Origin: a virus
IMG/VR virus record: IMGVR_UViG_3300046514_000174
Span: 1-57,566 of that record
DNA: 57,566 nt
Strand: one strand, 5' to 3'
The position numbers and the translations under genes are program-made. The notes beneath the pieces are model-generated. The model saw only the letters and a list, made by a program, of their open reading frames with translations. It did no database searches and was not told where the DNA came from. Of this stretch, positions 19,640 through 25,940 are shown piece by piece (the stretch's first letter is position 1; each line of letters opens with the position of its first letter).

Positions 19640-19690
19640 AAAACCCCTTACATACCACGGCTCACGTCCGTGGTATGTAAGGGGTTTTTT
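19640..19690. terminator. Very strong terminator
   Basis: A 21-bp perfect stem (19640-19660 with 19668-19688), seven-base loop and a run of six T at 19685-19690. It insulates the region upstream from the early promoter at 19.86 kb. The stem also works on the other strand, with a weaker T-run. Confidence 0.88.
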
Positions 19691-19859
19691 GTTGCCTTGC
19701 TACCCACAGCTAACATTAGTTGTTAGGTAACATCAGGTCCAGCTACAGACTGCGCCAGGCTACACTAGCAAGTGCTTTTGCACAAAAGTCGAACCACGTT
19801 GTGCTAGTCTTAGCTAATTGTTCATTACCTATCATTAGTTGAGTTTAAGACGTATATAT
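19691..19859. other. Intergenic stretch without a gene
   Basis: No gene seen. One small palindrome (CTTTTG-CA-CAAAAG around 19772) is present. The stretch becomes AT-rich toward the promoter. Confidence 0.6.
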
Positions 19860-19888
19860 TTGCATAATTTTGGATATTCCTGTATAAT
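19860..19888 (+). promoter_or_regulatory. Predicted early promoter
   Basis: TTGCAT (19860-19865), a 17-base spacer and a perfect TATAAT (19883-19888). Transcription would begin about seven bases later, near 19895, exactly at the left arm of the large inverted repeat. Confidence 0.7.
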
Positions 19889-19894
19889 AGGAGA

Positions 19895-20014
19895 GGAACC
19901 GAGAAAATACAGTATTCTTTTAATAGACAATAGAATATATAAGTATATAAGAATACTCTTATATACTTACCCTTTAGTAAAACAATACAAACATTACTGT
20001 ATTTTCTCGGTTCC
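19895..20014 (+). repeat. Long nested inverted repeat at the mRNA 5' end
   Basis: Perfect 20-bp arms (19895-19914 and 19995-20014) enclose 80 AT-rich bases. Inside is a second perfect palindrome, 13-bp arms with loop ATAC (19940-19952 and 19957-19969). As RNA it would place a closed stem at the very 5' end of the early transcript. As DNA it could be an origin or protein-binding site. A good ribosome binding site and the next gene follow within 25 bases. Confidence 0.8.
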
Positions 20015-20036: not shown

Positions 20037-20702
20037 ATGCCCCGAAAGAAAAATGCCCCAGAACAACCACCATTCTATGACCCATTCAACCTAAGTAACG
20101 AACCCAAGCCGCCAACAGAAGAAACAATGTCCCAGTACAACGAGTACATAACCCGTTTAAGGAACCCCAAACGACCACCCTACCAGAACCCTTACCAGTG
20201 GAAGGCAGGTAACCTTACAAAAGTTTCACTGTACCTTTCCCACCCAAGTCGTGAGGGTCTCTACAAATTAGCCCGCACCTTCAATTATGGACATGACCAA
20301 TCCACGGCTAGGCAAGCTAACATATCCTCATTCCTACGTTCCCTAGCAGACCCACTAGTAGAATGGACCGATGAACGTCCCGAACAGTTACGTTCCCTAG
20401 ACCACGATATAATAACTAACGGTGGAGTACCACTATGGATAGACCCCGATGAACACTACCCTCGCATAAATGCCCAGTTTTTCCTTACCAATACAATCAA
20501 GGACATATTCTATAAATTAGCACTGTCCTTCATGATATTCCCACCTAACCACATCAAAGCCCTACCCGTAGGTCCAACACTGTCCATGTTATTTGAAGTA
20601 ATAGGCCGTAACCTACTAGTACCCCACAATGTCCCTATGAACCCAAACCCAGCGAAAAAGTATTACCCACCACAGAAACACCTATACGATTACTCCATAT
20701 AA
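20037..20702 (+). CDS. Early protein with two ribbon-helix-helix-like repeats
   Basis: 221 residues, binding site AGAGGAAG before ATG. Two related segments are visible. One is KVSLYLSHPSREGLYKLART with SSFLRSLADPLVEW. The other is AQFFLTNTIKDIFYKLALSF with LSMLFEVIGRNLL. Each has a strand followed by two helices, like a ribbon-helix-helix DNA-binding unit fused in tandem. The gene follows a large inverted repeat, which it may bind. The fold assignment is by eye. Confidence 0.6.
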   Translation: MPRKKNAPEQPPFYDPFNLSNEPKPPTEETMSQYNEYITRLRNPKRPPYQNPYQWKAGNLTKVSLYLSHPSREGLYKLARTFNYGHDQSTARQANISSFLRSLADPLVEWTDERPEQLRSLDHDIITNGGVPLWIDPDEHYPRINAQFFLTNTIKDIFYKLALSFMIFPPNHIKALPVGPTLSMLFEVIGRNLLVPHNVPMNPNPAKKYYPPQKHLYDYSI

Positions 20703-21357: not shown

Positions 21358-21358
21358 T

Positions 21359-21445
21359 GCAGAGTGGACCAACCACCATACAGCCAGTATGGCCAGGTTG
21401 GTTTAATGCACACAAGGGGTCACAAGTCCCCTTAATACAGTGCAT
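21359..21445 (+). ncRNA. Structured intergenic RNA element, copy 1
   Basis: Starts GCAGAGTGG right after a stop codon. P1 hairpin CCAACC/GGTTGG with inner CCATAC/GTATGG; then GTTTAATG; P3 ATGCAC/GTGCAT encloses P4 AAGGGG/CCCCTT with loop TCACAAGT. The loop TCAC can pair with the leader GTGG. The GAGG ribosome site of the next gene follows immediately. Confidence 0.85.
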
Positions 21446-21455
21446 GAGGTAATCA

Positions 21456-21674
21456 ATGTCCAGCCTGACCTTAGAGCAACGTATGGCCAGGGCATCACAA
21501 CATGCTAACTTTGTATTGGTGGTAAACTATACCACTGGCTCGGGTAAGAAGTCAGTGCAAGTGTACGGTTTGATTGGCAACGAGACAGATGCACGTAACG
21601 TTGCCAGCCGTACAGTCCGTACATTTCCCCATAAGGTTACCAGTCATGAGTTTATCGTTACGTGCCATGACTAA
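21456..21674 (+). CDS. Small early protein, 72 residues
   Basis: Its GAGG site directly follows RNA element copy 1. The N-terminus is helical (LEQRMARASQHANF), then beta strands (KKSVQVYGLIGNETDARNVA) typical of a small alpha/beta protein. Function unknown. Confidence 0.68.
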   Translation: MSSLTLEQRMARASQHANFVLVVNYTTGSGKKSVQVYGLIGNETDARNVASRTVRTFPHKVTSHEFIVTCHD

Positions 21675-21894
21675 TGGTAGGGGATCGATAGGCTTAATGG
21701 TGGTACACGGTCATACATTTAAGCAACCCCGTGTACTACCTAACGGTATGATACAGAGTACCGACACTCCCGTATCATACCACAATGCAGGGGTTACTAT
21801 GGACAACCAGAAGCACCCCTCTCACAATGCCTATAAGACAGGGTGCCGATGTAACCTATGCAAGGAGTTTATGCACAACTACCGTAAGAAGTAG
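21667..21894 (+). CDS. Small early protein with GCRC zinc motif
   Basis: 75 residues from ATG 21667, overlapping the previous gene; ATG 21697 or 21787 are alternatives. The C-terminus has HNAYKTGCRCNLCKEFMHNY, the motif seen again in the gene at 30533 and common in actinobacteriophage small proteins. It probably binds zinc. The stop shares its last base with RNA element copy 2. Confidence 0.6.
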   Translation: MTNGRGSIGLMVVHGHTFKQPRVLPNGMIQSTDTPVSYHNAGVTMDNQKHPSHNAYKTGCRCNLCKEFMHNYRKK

Positions 21895-21982
21895 CAGAGT
21901 GGGCCAACACACTACACTACCAGTGTAGCCAGTGTTGGTTTAATGCGCGAGCAAGTCACAAGCCTTGCTAATACTAGCGCAT
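21894..21982 (+). ncRNA. Structured intergenic RNA element, copy 2
   Basis: GCAGAGTGG leader. P1 CCAACA/TGTTGG with inner CTACACT/AGTGTAG; GTTTAATG; P3 ATGCGC/GCGCAT around P4 AGCAAG/CTTGCT with loop TCACAAGC. Same pseudoknot type as copies 1 and 5 (GTGG with TCAC). Followed by a G-run binding site and the gene at 22000. Confidence 0.85.
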
Positions 21983-21999
21983 AACAAAAGGGGGGGCCA

Positions 22000-22317
22000 A
22001 TGGCACTTACTCGTGAACAAGCCCTAAACGCCCATGAGTTTCATGTAGGCCAGTGTACCCGTACCGTAGGCCCACGTGGTGGTATCACCACACACAGTGA
22101 GGTATGGCGACGTAACGGCCAGACCAAAACATGGAAAACCCGCCCCGATGAGTATTCCATTCCAATTAAGTATGGCATGGGGTACGGACGACGTGGTTAC
22201 AACTACATCACACAAGACCAAGCACAGCACTGGCATTGTGCCGAGGATTGCCCACTCCATGACCCAACGTACACTACCCTAGAACCAGACGTACGAAAGG
22301 CTACGTCCAATGCTTAA
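22000..22317 (+). CDS. Early protein, 105 residues, unknown
   Basis: Follows RNA element copy 2 and a run of seven G. Basic middle part (EVWRRNGQTKTWKTRPDEYS), then a Cys/His-bearing C-terminal part (HWHCAEDCPLHD) that may bind zinc. Overlaps the next gene by eight bases. Confidence 0.7.
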   Translation: MALTREQALNAHEFHVGQCTRTVGPRGGITTHSEVWRRNGQTKTWKTRPDEYSIPIKYGMGYGRRGYNYITQDQAQHWHCAEDCPLHDPTYTTLEPDVRKATSNA

Positions 22318-22480
22318 CCAGGACCAACTAGTACGACTGTCCATTGTACTACAACATGCCTACACTAGGCAGTCCATCCGTGGCAACGAGAATGAATGTC
22401 TTAGGTTACAAGACATTCATACTATTCTTGGCCATCTCTACACACCATACATTAAGGCTAAGGTTGCCACTCACCATTAA
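22310..22480 (+). CDS. Small helical early protein, 56 residues
   Basis: ATG overlaps the previous gene by 8 bases; stop TAA lies immediately before RNA element copy 3. Mostly helix (LVRLSIVLQHAYTRQSIRG). No family recognised; called from tight fit between neighbours. Confidence 0.6.
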   Translation: MLNQDQLVRLSIVLQHAYTRQSIRGNENECLRLQDIHTILGHLYTPYIKAKVATHH

Positions 22481-22568
22481 GCAGATGGGACTACCCACCC
22501 TACACTCCAGTAGGGTCAGGGTAGTTTAATGCACAGAGACGGTCCAAAGTCCGTCTAATCCAGTGCAT
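22481..22568 (+). ncRNA. Structured intergenic RNA element, copy 3
   Basis: GCAGATGGG leader. P1 CTACCC/GGGTAG with inner ACCCTAC/GTAGGGT; GTTTAATG; P3 ATGCAC/GTGCAT around P4 AGACGG/CCGTCT with loop TCCAAAGT. Second pseudoknot type: leader TGGG with loop TCCA. Followed by AAGGGG and a GTG start. Confidence 0.85.
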
Positions 22569-22581
22569 AAGGGGTACCACA

Positions 22582-22815
22582 GTGCTAAAGCATGAGTACA
22601 ACAACCGTGGCCTACACCGTATCAAATACGTAGGCCATACCACCGAGCAGAACTACCCACACACTCAGTTAGGGGAAATGACCAACTACACTTCTCCAGC
22701 ATTCATCGAAGTGGATGATATCCACTACGTTGTCTTTACCCCATACTACTTTACCGATGAAGGCCCAGGGTTACTGGCTGATACCATCTACCAACTCACC
22801 CCTATCAACCAGTAA
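22582..22815 (+). CDS. Small early protein, 77 residues
   Basis: GTG start at 22582 with AAGGGG in the preceding element. Beta-rich: FIEVDDIHYVVFTPYYFTDE. Acidic C-terminal half. Function unknown. Confidence 0.66.
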   Translation: MLKHEYNNRGLHRIKYVGHTTEQNYPHTQLGEMTNYTSPAFIEVDDIHYVVFTPYYFTDEGPGLLADTIYQLTPINQ

Positions 22816-22833
22816 GAAAAGGGGGACCGCAGG

Positions 22834-23010
22834 TTGCCTATCAATAACGACCAGCTAGCCAAAGAATACCGTAAGTGGCACGAAGCGTGGCGTACGGAAC
22901 TAGCTCTACTGCCTATGTTACCCAAGGGTTCCATGCAAGCCCGTAACTGCCAACAACGCCTAACCTATGCTGTCCGCCAGCTAGAGCGCATTGAAAGGTT
23001 AACCCAATGA
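22834..23010 (+). CDS. Small basic helical protein, 58 residues
   Basis: TTG start at 22834 with AGGGGG eight bases before; the stop overlaps the next ATG (ATGA). Almost all helix and basic (AKEYRKWHEAWRTELALL and RQLERIERL). Called from the binding site and coupling. Confidence 0.6.
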   Translation: MPINNDQLAKEYRKWHEAWRTELALLPMLPKGSMQARNCQQRLTYAVRQLERIERLTQ

Positions 23011-23381
23011 AAGTCTACGGCGTAACCCAACCGCAACTCACTCAAATCGCCACCCAGCTAGACGTAGCTCTGTTTAACGTCCGTACCGACCCTGACCGTA
23101 ACCCCAACCTTACTCCACTAACGTACTTCCAACTCCGACCTACCCAAACGGACACCAATGAGTACCGTAAGGTAGGTCGTAGCGGTCGTAGGGTACATGC
23201 TATCTCCTGGGAAGGACATAGGGACTTCTTCATTGCCCTATTCCAAGAATACCCCAATGCTAAGGTCGTTACTGGCCTGGTCCAACGGTACACTACCAAC
23301 GGCCGTTTGGCAGGTTGGGGTGTAACTTACAATGGTCAACAAGACTACCTCGAAAAGTACCCCATGACTGCCCTAGCCTAG
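23007..23381 (+). CDS. Early protein, 124 residues, unknown
   Basis: Coupled to the preceding gene by ATGA. An alpha/beta protein: MKVYGVTQPQLTQIATQLDV, then basic HAISWEGHRDFFIALF, then RLAGWGVTYNGQQDYL. It is followed by RNA element copy 4. I recognise no family. Confidence 0.68.
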   Translation: MKVYGVTQPQLTQIATQLDVALFNVRTDPDRNPNLTPLTYFQLRPTQTDTNEYRKVGRSGRRVHAISWEGHRDFFIALFQEYPNAKVVTGLVQRYTTNGRLAGWGVTYNGQQDYLEKYPMTALA

Positions 23382-23382
23382 C

Positions 23383-23476
23383 GCAGATGGGACCAACTGA
23401 CACTACCACCATACGGTAAGTGTCAGTTGGTTTAATGCGGCTATACGGTCCACAGCCCGTATAAAACTACCCGCAT
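23383..23476 (+). ncRNA. Structured intergenic RNA element, copy 4
   Basis: GCAGATGGG leader. Long P1 CCAACTGACACT/AGTGTCAGTTGG; GTTTAATG; P3 ATGCGG/CCGCAT around P4 ATACGG/CCGTAT with loop TCCACAGC. Second pseudoknot type (TGGG with TCCA). GAGG and ATG of the next gene follow within 12 bases. Confidence 0.85.
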
Positions 23477-23487
23477 GAGGAACTACC

Positions 23488-23643
23488 ATGAAGTTTAAGG
23501 TTACACTGTCACACCTTGGTGGGTACCCCTGGCTAGTCCAGGACATAACAAATGAGCGTCCCATCATAGTAGCTTCATTCATGCATCAGGATGATGCCCA
23601 AGAGTACGTAGACTTCCTCAACGCTAAGTACAAGGACAACTAA
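23488..23643 (+). CDS. Small early protein, 51 residues
   Basis: ATG 23488 is seven bases after GAGG, directly downstream of RNA element copy 4; the stop TAATG overlaps the next start. It starts MKFKVTLSHLGGYPWLVQD and ends in an acidic helix (DDAQEYVDFLNAKY). Function unknown. Confidence 0.66.
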   Translation: MKFKVTLSHLGGYPWLVQDITNERPIIVASFMHQDDAQEYVDFLNAKYKDN

Positions 23644-24038
23644 TGTACCACGATAGCCCACCCTCATCCTACTATGAACCACCAGACTATGAACCCCAGG
23701 TAGACTTTAGCTGGTCCCGTACCCAACGTACCCGTACCCAACACCAATGCACTACCTGCCGTAAACACATTCCCATCGGTACCCTTACCACAGTTACGTT
23801 TGAGCGAGTCGAGGGCCAGCAGTACTACTTACGTACCTGTACTGGTATCTACAAGCCCCCTAGTTATAACTGTGATGTCCTTACAGGACCGCTATCCCGT
23901 ATTGGCTACCTTGTCTTGAATGATGATACGGTAGCCTACTTCCCGCAGAACCACGTACCGCATGCTACGTGGTTTGAGGAAACCCTAGACCAACCTGGCC
24001 AACTCATCCCCATCAGTTACCTAGGAAGGAGTAAGTAA
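23643..24038 (+). CDS. Early protein with CxxC motif, 131 residues
   Basis: Pro/Tyr-rich start, then QHQCTTCRKHIPIGTLTTVT, a possible treble-clef-like zinc hook, then beta strands and an acidic end. Starts and stops overlap neighbours by one base. Function unknown. Confidence 0.68.
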   Translation: MYHDSPPSSYYEPPDYEPQVDFSWSRTQRTRTQHQCTTCRKHIPIGTLTTVTFERVEGQQYYLRTCTGIYKPPSYNCDVLTGPLSRIGYLVLNDDTVAYFPQNHVPHATWFEETLDQPGQLIPISYLGRSK

Positions 24039-24475
24039 TGGCCCGCACAACCCCTACTCCCGAGGACATCCAAGCCCTGTCCCAAGCCCTCAATACTATG
24101 CCAGATGATCTTATCTACGGCCACCTACGAGTATGGAAAACTATGTGGAACCCACCAACTCCAGTTTACTGTGCAGTAGGGTGGTTCCTCCATGCTAAGG
24201 GTATCCCTGACGATGCTATGTCCCGGACCATTGTCTATGGTGATGAATGTCCACTCAGCATCCGTAACAAGCACTTCCGCCCACGTAAGACTCTCAGCCG
24301 CTATCCAGTCTATGAGCGTGAGGGTGTATCCCTTATGGCATCCCTCTACCACCTACCATTAAAGGAGTGCCGTAACCTTATGAAGGTAAATGACCTAACC
24401 TACAGTACCGAGCGTAAGGAAGCAGTCCAACAGTTCGTTAAGGCTATGATCCATAGAGTAACTCATCCTGCATAG
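24038..24475 (+). CDS. Early helical protein, 145 residues
   Basis: Starts in the stop codon of the previous gene. Mostly helical; CAVGWFLHAKGIPDDAMSRT sits in the middle, and the C-terminal part is basic (ERKEAVQQFVKAMIHRVTHP). The stop is immediately followed by RNA element copy 5. Function unknown. Confidence 0.68.
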   Translation: MARTTPTPEDIQALSQALNTMPDDLIYGHLRVWKTMWNPPTPVYCAVGWFLHAKGIPDDAMSRTIVYGDECPLSIRNKHFRPRKTLSRYPVYEREGVSLMASLYHLPLKECRNLMKVNDLTYSTERKEAVQQFVKAMIHRVTHPA

Positions 24476-24561
24476 CAGAGTGGACTACCCTACGCCATTT
24501 CCAGTGGTGCGGGTAGTTTAATGGGTAGTCCAGTCACAAGCCCTGGACAAAACTAACCCAT
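24475..24561 (+). ncRNA. Structured intergenic RNA element, copy 5
   Basis: GCAGAGTGG leader. P1 CTACCC/GGGTAG; GTTTAATG; P3 ATGGGT/ACCCAT around P4 GTCCAG/CTGGAC with loop TCACAAGCC. First pseudoknot type. Unlike the others, no gene starts right after it; a structured 175-base leader follows. Confidence 0.85.
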
Positions 24562-24735
24562 TACAGGGGTGCTTATTGTAGTTTAGTCCTACCGAGCGGT
24601 CCCCCATTACACCAGCGTAAATTTGCGCGAAGCGCCTTGCTTGTGCAATTGGAACTAATGTCCTACGCACAAGCTGGCATAACCCCTACACCAGTCGTCA
24701 CTCGTGGACCCCATTAAGTGAGAAAGTGAGTCACT
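24562..24735 (+). promoter_or_regulatory. Structured leader before the gene at 24736
   Basis: No gene. An 8-bp hairpin GCTTGTGC/GCACAAGC with a 20-base loop lies near 24640-24675, and AGGGGT near the start can pair with ACCCCT near 24690. It ends in AAGTGAGTCACT, a TGAGTCA-type site like those before the late operon. It could hold an internal promoter or translational control. Confidence 0.45.
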
Positions 24736-24945
24736 ATGAACCGCTACACGTTTAAGGTAACCCCAAGCTACACTACCCTGGATGACTCCACAGTAATTAA
24801 CCTAGAGGTAACTATGTCCACCCCACTACCACTAGAACGAGCTAAGGAAGTCATTAGGTCACGTATGCGTACCCTACTGTACCCCATCAGTAATAACCTA
24901 GTCCTAGACATGGAGTGTATTGACTATGAGGGAGAGGTAGAGTAA
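24736..24945 (+). CDS. Small protein, 69 residues
   Basis: Beta-alpha-beta pattern: NRYTFKVTPSYTTLDDSTVI, then TPLPLERAKEVIRSRM, then an acidic end. The start lies in the TGAGTCA-type repeat. Next start overlaps the stop (TAATG). Function unknown. Confidence 0.65.
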   Translation: MNRYTFKVTPSYTTLDDSTVINLEVTMSTPLPLERAKEVIRSRMRTLLYPISNNLVLDMECIDYEGEVE

Positions 24946-25907: not shown

Positions 25908-25940
25908 AAGGGTAGGGTACCACATAGGTACCCTACCCTT
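25908..25940 (-). terminator. Bidirectional terminator between convergent genes
   Basis: A perfect 14-bp stem (25908-25921 with 25927-25940) and five-base loop. Read on the minus strand it is followed by TTTTGTTATT, so it terminates the gene at 25960-26298. On the plus strand the T-run is missing. Confidence 0.8.

Follow-up and report, generated by a model that had tools for sequence, protein, structure and literature searches.

Type-P5 twister ribozymes between the early genes of a phage, each with a strand that could cap its predicted cut end

Five elements between genes of an early operon

The window analysed here is the whole 57,566-nucleotide stretch of the IMG/VR virus record IMGVR_UViG_3300046514_000174. 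Within 3.2 kb of it, five RNA elements (e1 to e5) lie between open reading frames on the coding (+) strand, at 21359-21445, 21894-21982, 22481-22568, 23383-23476, and 24475-24561. They were first noticed in an initial annotation made from the sequence, and we find them as it described them: GCAGA, GTTTAATG, and a short apical loop are common to all five, and the stem sequences vary among the copies while pairing is retained. The element start is offset from the stop codon of the upstream ORF by 1, -1, 0, 1, and -1 nt (e1 to e5; ORFs of 57, 106, 65, 128, and 146 codons). The next gene's Shine-Dalgarno and start codon follow 22-30 nt past helix P4 in four of the five elements and are absent after the fifth. 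Compared with dinucleotide shuffles, the full elements fold far better (z of -4.5, -3.2, -5.7, -5.2, and -3.8). The initial annotation proposed that an RNA fold under selection is transcribed and recurs between early genes, possibly to process mRNA, and this is supported.

Transcription of the operon could start at a promoter-like site, TTTGCA-18-TATAAT (19859..19888, + strand; 10/12 in a consensus scan only), with an expected +1 near 19895. At this expected +1 begins a leader hairpin (19895..20014, + strand), a 20-bp perfect inverted repeat (z -7.8); downstream of it lies the first gene's Shine-Dalgarno (ATG at 20037). From 19688 to e5, no gene boundary carries a terminator-like site on the + strand, the two weak matches there being inside ORFs. 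The same between-gene layout of ribozymes occurs in other phages.

Assignment to Twister-P5

The initial annotation knew of no named family with this layout and offered an Rfam search as the check on that claim. The search returned Twister-P5 (RF02684), thus ruling out an unnamed RNA family. Judged by sequence and pairing, the five elements are type-P5 twister ribozymes, for which self-cleavage is predicted. All on the + strand, e1 (21358..21431) scores 48.7 bits, e2 (21893..21967) 47.2 bits, e3 (22480..22554) 48.7 bits, and e4 (23382..23460) 47.4 bits, above the Rfam gathering cutoff of 37.6 bits. The diverged e5 (24474..24545) scores 29.1 bits, under the cutoff because one P2 pair is broken. 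No other Rfam family was found in 17600-43300 at E up to 5.

Helices P1 and P4 are paired in all five elements, with sequences that differ between copies. P2 (GCA/UGC; in e1, 21359-21361 with 21407-21409) is paired in e1 to e4, extending to four pairs in e4 (CGCA/UGCG), and is GCA/UGG with one G.G mismatch in e5. Read from the sequences, pseudoknot T1 (L1 with L4) is GUG/CAC in e1, e2, and e5 and UGG/CCA in e3 and e4; pseudoknot T2 (L2 dinucleotide with L4), read by the definition in PMC5408937, is AC/GU in e1 and e3, GC/GC in e2 and e4, and GU/GC, with one wobble, in e5. Both pseudoknots pair in all five elements and covary between copies. The predicted scissile U-A step, followed by AUGC, lies in UUUAAUGC in e1 to e4 and in UUUAAUGG in e5. 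The cut is accordingly expected at U|AAUG, between 21404 (U) and 21405 (A) in e1 and at 21941|21942, 22527|22528, and 23433|23434 in e2 to e4, and at 24519|24520 in e5 if that copy is active.

The initial annotation also had the fold spread by duplication. This is plausible for the five copies themselves, which have stem sequences and an AAUAC/AAAAC linker 3' of P4 in common, but the class is present in many unrelated phages.

A strand complementary to the predicted cut end

The helix that the initial annotation called P3 is real and is the part of the elements that lies outside the known family. Its single-fold drawing stands for the individual helices but not for their coexistence, this helix and the ribozyme helix P2 being in competition for the same bases. 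In all five copies, a strand complementary to AAUGCNN, the sequence after the cut, lies 3' of P4 and just before the next Shine-Dalgarno; we call it the cap strand. It forms a cap hairpin, enclosing the P4 hairpin, at 21406..21445 in e1 (AUGCAC 21406-21411 with GUGCAU 21440-21445), 21943..21982 in e2 (AUGCGC 21943-21948 with GCGCAU 21977-21982), 22529..22568 in e3 (AUGCAC 22529-22534 with GUGCAU 22563-22568), 23435..23476 in e4 (AUGCGG 23435-23440 with CCGCAU 23471-23476), and 24520..24562 in e5 (AAUGGGU 24520-24526 with ACCCAUU 24556-24562), all on the + strand. The e5 cap is all Watson-Crick despite the broken P2. The Shine-Dalgarno directly abuts the cap in e1 (GAGG at 21446, + strand), e3, and e4. 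Since both need the same UGC, cap and P2 are mutually exclusive.

In minimum free energy (MFE) folds, the predicted 3' products carry at their 5' end this hairpin upstream of the ribosome site; the e5 cap rests on the product MFE and on cap scoring, those of e1 to e4 on folding of products and of transcript prefixes. In prefixes of e1 to e4, P2 forms once the transcript extends 12 nt past the cut, and the cap appears at +40 to +44 nt (P2 of e1 being displaced at +40 nt). Thus, in growing-transcript folding, P2 persists until the cap strand emerges and is then displaced, only transiently in e4, where the two folds are near-equal in energy and P2 is back in the longest prefix. This behaviour of e4 counts against a strand exchange, as does the folding of two of the five 3' products no better than shuffles (z -0.3); the products of e1 and e3 reach z -2.9.

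Two other identities for the cap strand were rejected. It is not part of a twister P5 helix, as the upstream sequences are unpaired with it (for example, in e2 and in the viral contig G026). Nor is it a remnant of P2 from a type-P1 twister: the T1 triplet is missing, and its pairing takes in positions 1, 2, 6, and 7, outside P2.

Tandem arrays of Twister-P5 also occur in unrelated viral contigs, with up to 20 copies per contig. The first viral scan gave mostly chance matches, and a locus was kept only if Rfam or pairing checks confirmed it; true type-P1 twisters matching one scan were set aside, and matches in Pseudomonas phages were rejected as lying inside genes on the other strand or having no RF02684 score. 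Array copies typically begin at a stop codon and end before a Shine-Dalgarno: 107/136 start -2 to 14 nt from a stop codon that closes an ORF of 30 codons or more (14% for random positions), and in 125/136 a Shine-Dalgarno and start codon follow P4 within 75 nt. In other loci, T1 is also GGG/CCC, GAG/CUC, AGG/CCU, CGG/CCG, or UAG/CUA, and in array members of other phages P2 is swapped with compensation (GUG/CAC, GAG/CUC, GGG/CCC, ACA/UGU, GCG/CGC). Orthologous loci could not be compared because no near relatives were found: a DNA search of INPHARED gave no match, a helicase search of IMG/VR was empty, and terminase matches reached 24-29% identity at best.

The cap strand recurs in many viral contigs, including that of the isolated phage Tunturi_4 (three of its four ribozymes), and is nearly absent in others (1/20 copies in G009, 3/15 in G006, 0/4 in G008, 0/5 in G011). 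With many arrays lacking it, the cap is dispensable for array function in general. Where it occurs, it covaries with the product. A cap score of at least 5 is reached by 52/131 array copies outside the window, compared with a mean of 28.7 (largest 37; 500 swaps) when downstream strands are swapped among copies and of 43.6 (largest 49; 500 swaps) when they are swapped only within a phage. We relied on these swaps and on a fixed-anchor table, whose copies had to satisfy a single requirement, a GCA no more than about 20 nt beyond P4, because indels put a MAFFT alignment of the cap regions out of register. In this table, product position 6 and its cap partner are A-U in 10 copies, G-C in 51, and U-A in 4 (Fisher p 8e-7), and position 7 is C-G in 12 and G-C in 19, versus 2 swapped (p 5e-7); excluding the window, the values are 1.5e-5 and 1e-5. 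All four p-values are too optimistic, as copies within one phage are related.

Proposed mechanism, alternatives, and known systems

What might these elements do? We consider it probable that Twister-P5 ribozymes cut the early-operon transcript between genes and carry a built-in strand exchange. The ribozyme would fold during transcription (P1, P2, P4, T1, and T2) and cut at U|AAUG, leaving an upstream message that ends in the P1 hairpin and a few further nucleotides bearing a 2',3'-cyclic phosphate, and a downstream message that begins 5'-OH-AAUGC. The strand behind P4, transcribed after the ribozyme is complete, would then pair with AAUGCNN, which during catalysis would be part of P2 and T2. 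Such an exchange would dismantle the ribozyme and all but preclude reversal of the cut, and it would sequester the 5'-OH end in a stem enclosing the P4 hairpin and ending at the next gene's Shine-Dalgarno. One- to three-gene messages with a hairpin beside each cut end would result, their 5' ends presumably protected from RNases and their ribosome sites kept clear. Consistent with a need for such protection, the 5'-OH product of the glmS ribozyme is degraded by RNase J1 (PMC3328962).

Alternatively, the twisters may process the operon as clustered hammerheads are thought to, the complementary strand being a neutral by-product of common descent. Bare processing has already been proposed for prophage hammerheads (PMC3088659), and the nearly cap-less arrays G009 and G006 are otherwise placed alike. 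We nevertheless regard this as unlikely: cap partners covary from copy to copy, also inside one phage, as in the window and in G026, whose caps include UGCACG/CGUGCA, UGCGCU/AGCGCA, and AAUGCG/CGCAUU. Pairing moreover reaches past P2 to positions 1, 2, 6, and 7, and in e5 the cap is kept through changes on both sides while P2 is broken.

A different order of events is that the cap could form before cutting and block cleavage, which would count against our preferred mechanism. The element would then be a timing switch in which the cap strand competes with P2, cleavage occurring only if the polymerase is slow or pausing or if ribosomes hold the strand open, and would choose between a long uncut message and separate ones. 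At full length, e1, e2, e3, and e5 have the cap rather than P2 in their MFE fold, P4 and the cap are completed only about 12 nt of transcription apart, and a terminating ribosome would cover P2 because the element start overlaps the stop codon. Against this, RNAfold leaves out of its score the pseudoknots on which the ribozyme fold depends, no sensor is visible, and a twister is predicted to cut at a rate of about 1000 per minute under physiological conditions (PMC6154101), fast enough to win the race, although crystal-structure constructs cut at about 2.4 per minute. We hold a switch of this kind, and the choice between messages it implies, to be slightly less likely still than a neutral by-product.

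Twister cleavage leaves 5'-OH and 2',3'-cyclic-phosphate ends. Tandem cuts would thus supply suitable end chemistry, and two twister halves at the ends of each piece, for RtcB or reversal of the ribozyme to join released pieces into circular mRNAs. This we consider very improbable. The cap hides the 5' end needed for reversal, and the closed ribozyme would not form at e2-e3 (CAC with UGG) or e4-e5 (CCA with GUG), where the T1 strands of neighbours mismatch; circles from hammerhead arrays were sought and not found (PMC3088659).

Should cutting followed by strand exchange be correct, the active-site strand before cutting would be the 5' arm of the terminal hairpin after it, and one short sequence would cut the operon, lock the cut irreversibly, and shield the 5'-OH of each message. 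We give about an even chance to the broader idea of a widespread phage mRNA-processing class, a self-cleaving ribozyme carrying its own strand-exchange switch and replacing host processing RNases. Bacterial and phage genomes commonly carry twister and hammerhead ribozymes, whose role has been called largely speculative (PMC5408937); why they associate with phage genes and with one another has been called unknown (PMC10085705). For one subset, the cap strand offers a concrete, testable function, division of the operon transcript with protection of the 5' ends so created, and would explain how the downstream message could survive a cut that normally leaves a vulnerable 5'-OH exposed. With as many as 20 twisters in tandem in a single phage contig, and four in an isolated phage, the part that natural ribozymes play in gene expression can be measured directly.

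The ribozyme class is already known, whereas the cap strand and the hairpin it could form at the cut end are previously undescribed. The elements share with Twister-P5 (RF02684) the core GCAGA, UAAUGC, and L4 sequences, helices P1, P2, and P4, pseudoknots T1 and T2, the U-A cleavage step (predicted here), and the permutation open at P5; they differ in carrying the cap strand, which can pair with the 5' end of the 3' product and is outside the Rfam model, and in e5 in its broken P2 and score under the cutoff. Clustered prophage hammerheads likewise place several self-cleaving ribozymes between genes of one transcript and have been suggested to divide long phage transcripts into messages of one gene each, but they belong to another ribozyme class and the available text describes no strand exchange (PMC3088659). 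The RiboJ insulator (PMC6206723) also combines a self-cleaving ribozyme (cleavage being predicted in our case) with a hairpin that stays at the message 5' end, thought to stabilise the message and expose the ribosome site. RiboJ is synthetic, with an sTRSV-derived ribozyme and a separate hairpin, whereas the phage cap hairpin is built from the ribozyme's own product strand and would dismantle the ribozyme. Like the glmS ribozyme-riboswitch, a bacterial self-cleaving RNA that leaves a 5'-OH mRNA, the phage elements lie upstream of a gene, with a 5'-OH mRNA predicted here; glmS cleavage is ligand-dependent and its product decays by RNase J1 (PMC3328962), whereas in the phage a stem would conceal the 5' end.

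Four Twister-P5 copies and a probable fifth in the early operon

The five intergenic elements (e1, 21358..21431; e2, 21893..21967; e3, 22480..22554; e4, 23382..23460; e5, 24474..24545) are present as the initial annotation described them, and compared with dinucleotide shuffles their full folds are better by 3.2 to 5.7 standard deviations. That they belong to no named RNA family is not borne out: cmscan places e1 to e4 firmly in Twister-P5 (RF02684; 48.7, 47.2, 48.7 and 47.4 bits; cutoff 37.6), and e5, below this cutoff at 29.1 bits (E = 0.018), is probably a diverged member. A search of the surroundings against Rfam matched no further family.

The layout of e1 is GCAGAGUGG-P1-UU|U..., with the P2 strand GCA, the T1 pseudoknot strand GUG and then the P1 hairpin; from the predicted cut (U|A) follow AAUGC (P2 strand UGC), the T2 dinucleotide AC and the P4 hairpin with loop GUCACAAGU. 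T1 is paired in 5/5 copies with varying sequence (GUG/CAC in e1, e2 and e5; UGG/CCA in e3 and e4), and T2 pairs as AC/GU (e1, e3), GC/GC (e2, e4) or GU/GC (e5). In P2 of e5 a C to G change gives a G.G mismatch; as predicted ribozymes, e1 to e4 thus look intact and e5 weakened.

A cap strand exclusive with P2

Each copy in the window (5/5) also carries, 5 to 9 nt behind P4, a strand (the cap strand) with complementarity to the initial bases of the 3' product: AUGCAC/GUGCAU in e1 and e3, AUGCGC/GCGCAU in e2, AUGCGG/CCGCAU in e4, and AAUGGGU/ACCCAUU in e5. The Rfam model stops at P4 and is without it. Since the cap strand occupies the same UGC as P2, ribozyme and cap are alternative folds. In minimum free energy (MFE) folding of growing transcripts of e1 to e4, P2 is present from 12 nt past the cut and the cap displaces it at 40-44 nt (for e4, whose two folds are almost equal, P2 is back in the longest prefix), which shows the exclusiveness and order of the folds, not their energetics, because RNAfold leaves out pseudoknots. 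The MFE structure of the 3' product contains the cap in 5/5 copies; taken whole, the products of e2 and e5 are no better than shuffles. The case of e5 is informative, as P2 is broken and the cap kept, entirely Watson-Crick via changes on both sides.

A terminator-like hairpin (19641-19687), a promoter-like site (19859-19888) and a perfect 20-bp inverted repeat (19895-20014; 26 nt at 92%; z -7.8) are also found, the stem of the last closing ahead of the Shine-Dalgarno that serves the gene at 20037. Should the promoter be real, the inferred +1 would be near 19895, and because this coincides exactly with the start of the stem, a terminal stem would hide the operon's primary 5' end too. Two weak plus-strand terminator-like matches before e5 (22392, 22710) are both inside ORFs. 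There is no ORF directly after e5; a further inverted repeat, GCTTGTGC ... GCACAAGC (24640-24690), lies between it and the gene at 24736, and a perfect 14-bp hairpin (25908-25940) scored as a minus-strand terminator inside the rightward operon.

Recurrence in other phages

IMG/VR and bacterial genomes were scanned by pattern, and whole records were searched with RF02684; among the matches listed are same-strand tandem arrays in other phages (G009, 20 copies; G006, 15; G013, 14; G026, 9 within 5 kb; G007, 7; G001 and G005, 6 each). In 107/136 array copies the start lies -2 to 14 nt from a stop codon that ends an ORF of 30 codons or more (random positions, 14%), the G of GCAGA being the final stop-codon base in 33/136, and a Shine-Dalgarno and start codon follow within 75 nt of P4 in 125/136. 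P2 covaries in some copies (GUG/CAC, GAG/CUC, GGG/CCC, ACA/UGU, GCG/CGC), evidence for the ribozyme fold that does not depend on the consensus. The near-invariant GCA/UGC is replaced with compensation at L259 (670, 8764, 10132, 12819), L262 (90), L051, L158, L159 and L164, where minus-strand loci are numbered in reverse-complement coordinates; several of these copies would get low Rfam scores. One 90.6-kb viral contig (IMGVR_UViG_3300038673_000493; L256, L257) holds 20 Twister-P5 copies in two stretches, one per contig end, nearly all without a cap strand.

Sequence comparison indicates that the cap recurs and is under selection. When the 20 nt after P4 are scored, 52/131 non-window array copies have a cap score of 5 or more, against 28.7 when downstream strands are swapped among all copies (largest of 500, 37) and 43.6 when swapped only within each phage (largest 49). 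A larger set of 266 non-window copies, which overlaps the first in part, has 32 that reach score 6 versus 14.0 on swapping (largest 21). When copies are tabulated with nothing but a GCA after P4 as anchor, product position 6 and its cap partner form A-U 10, G-C 51 and U-A 4 times (Fisher p 8e-7; 1.5e-5 without window copies) and position 7 as C-G 12 and G-C 19 times with two swapped-kind exceptions (5e-7; 1e-5), p-values that are upper estimates of the evidence because the copies are related, the swap within each phage being the more cautious control. Phages differ widely in how often the cap occurs, from cap-rich (window 5/5, G026 9/9, G030 5/5, G028 3/3, G005 5/6, G013 6/10, G002 4/6) to cap-poor (G009 1/20, G006 3/15, G001 0/6, G008 0/4, G011 0/5). 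Cap partners in G026 differ by copy (AAUGCG/CGCAUU, UGCACG/CGUGCA, UGCGCU/AGCGCA), these three each lying directly 5' of GAGGAG or GGAG.

Four unannotated Twister-P5 ribozymes score above cutoff in a phage isolate, Tunturiibacter phage Tunturi_4 (PP885687.1; L301, 58349-63149). Each lies in a gap between annotated genes, and two begin immediately after the upstream stop codon; the paper on this phage mentions no ribozymes. Three of the four have a cap strand, the first (AAUGCG...CGCAUU) directly adjoining P4, with GGAGG next. Tunturi_4 would serve as a test bed.

Proposed order of events and known systems

What might the cap do? We propose that cutting during transcription would come first and strand exchange after, leaving downstream messages whose 5'-OH end is shut in a hairpin at the Shine-Dalgarno, and upstream messages that end beside the P1 hairpin. 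Published twister rates (PMC6154101) run from 1000 per minute, a prediction, down to 2.4 per minute, a measurement, so cutting may or may not always precede capping. A timing switch, in which the cap competes with P2 before the cut and cutting depends on timing, is a reading we consider improbable.

Why such a 5'-OH end would need cover is illustrated by glmS, whose 5'-OH product RNase J1 destroys (PMC3328962). We found no description of the cap strand or its exclusive relation to P2 in the literature searched, which did not extend to the original twister paper, and relative to that literature and the Rfam model both appear new. Tandem ribozymes in phage operons are known in kind: for clustered prophage hammerheads it has been proposed that they divide transcripts into messages of one gene each (PMC3088659). 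The synthetic RiboJ joins a ribozyme to a hairpin, a combination that raises mRNA and protein (PMC6206723).
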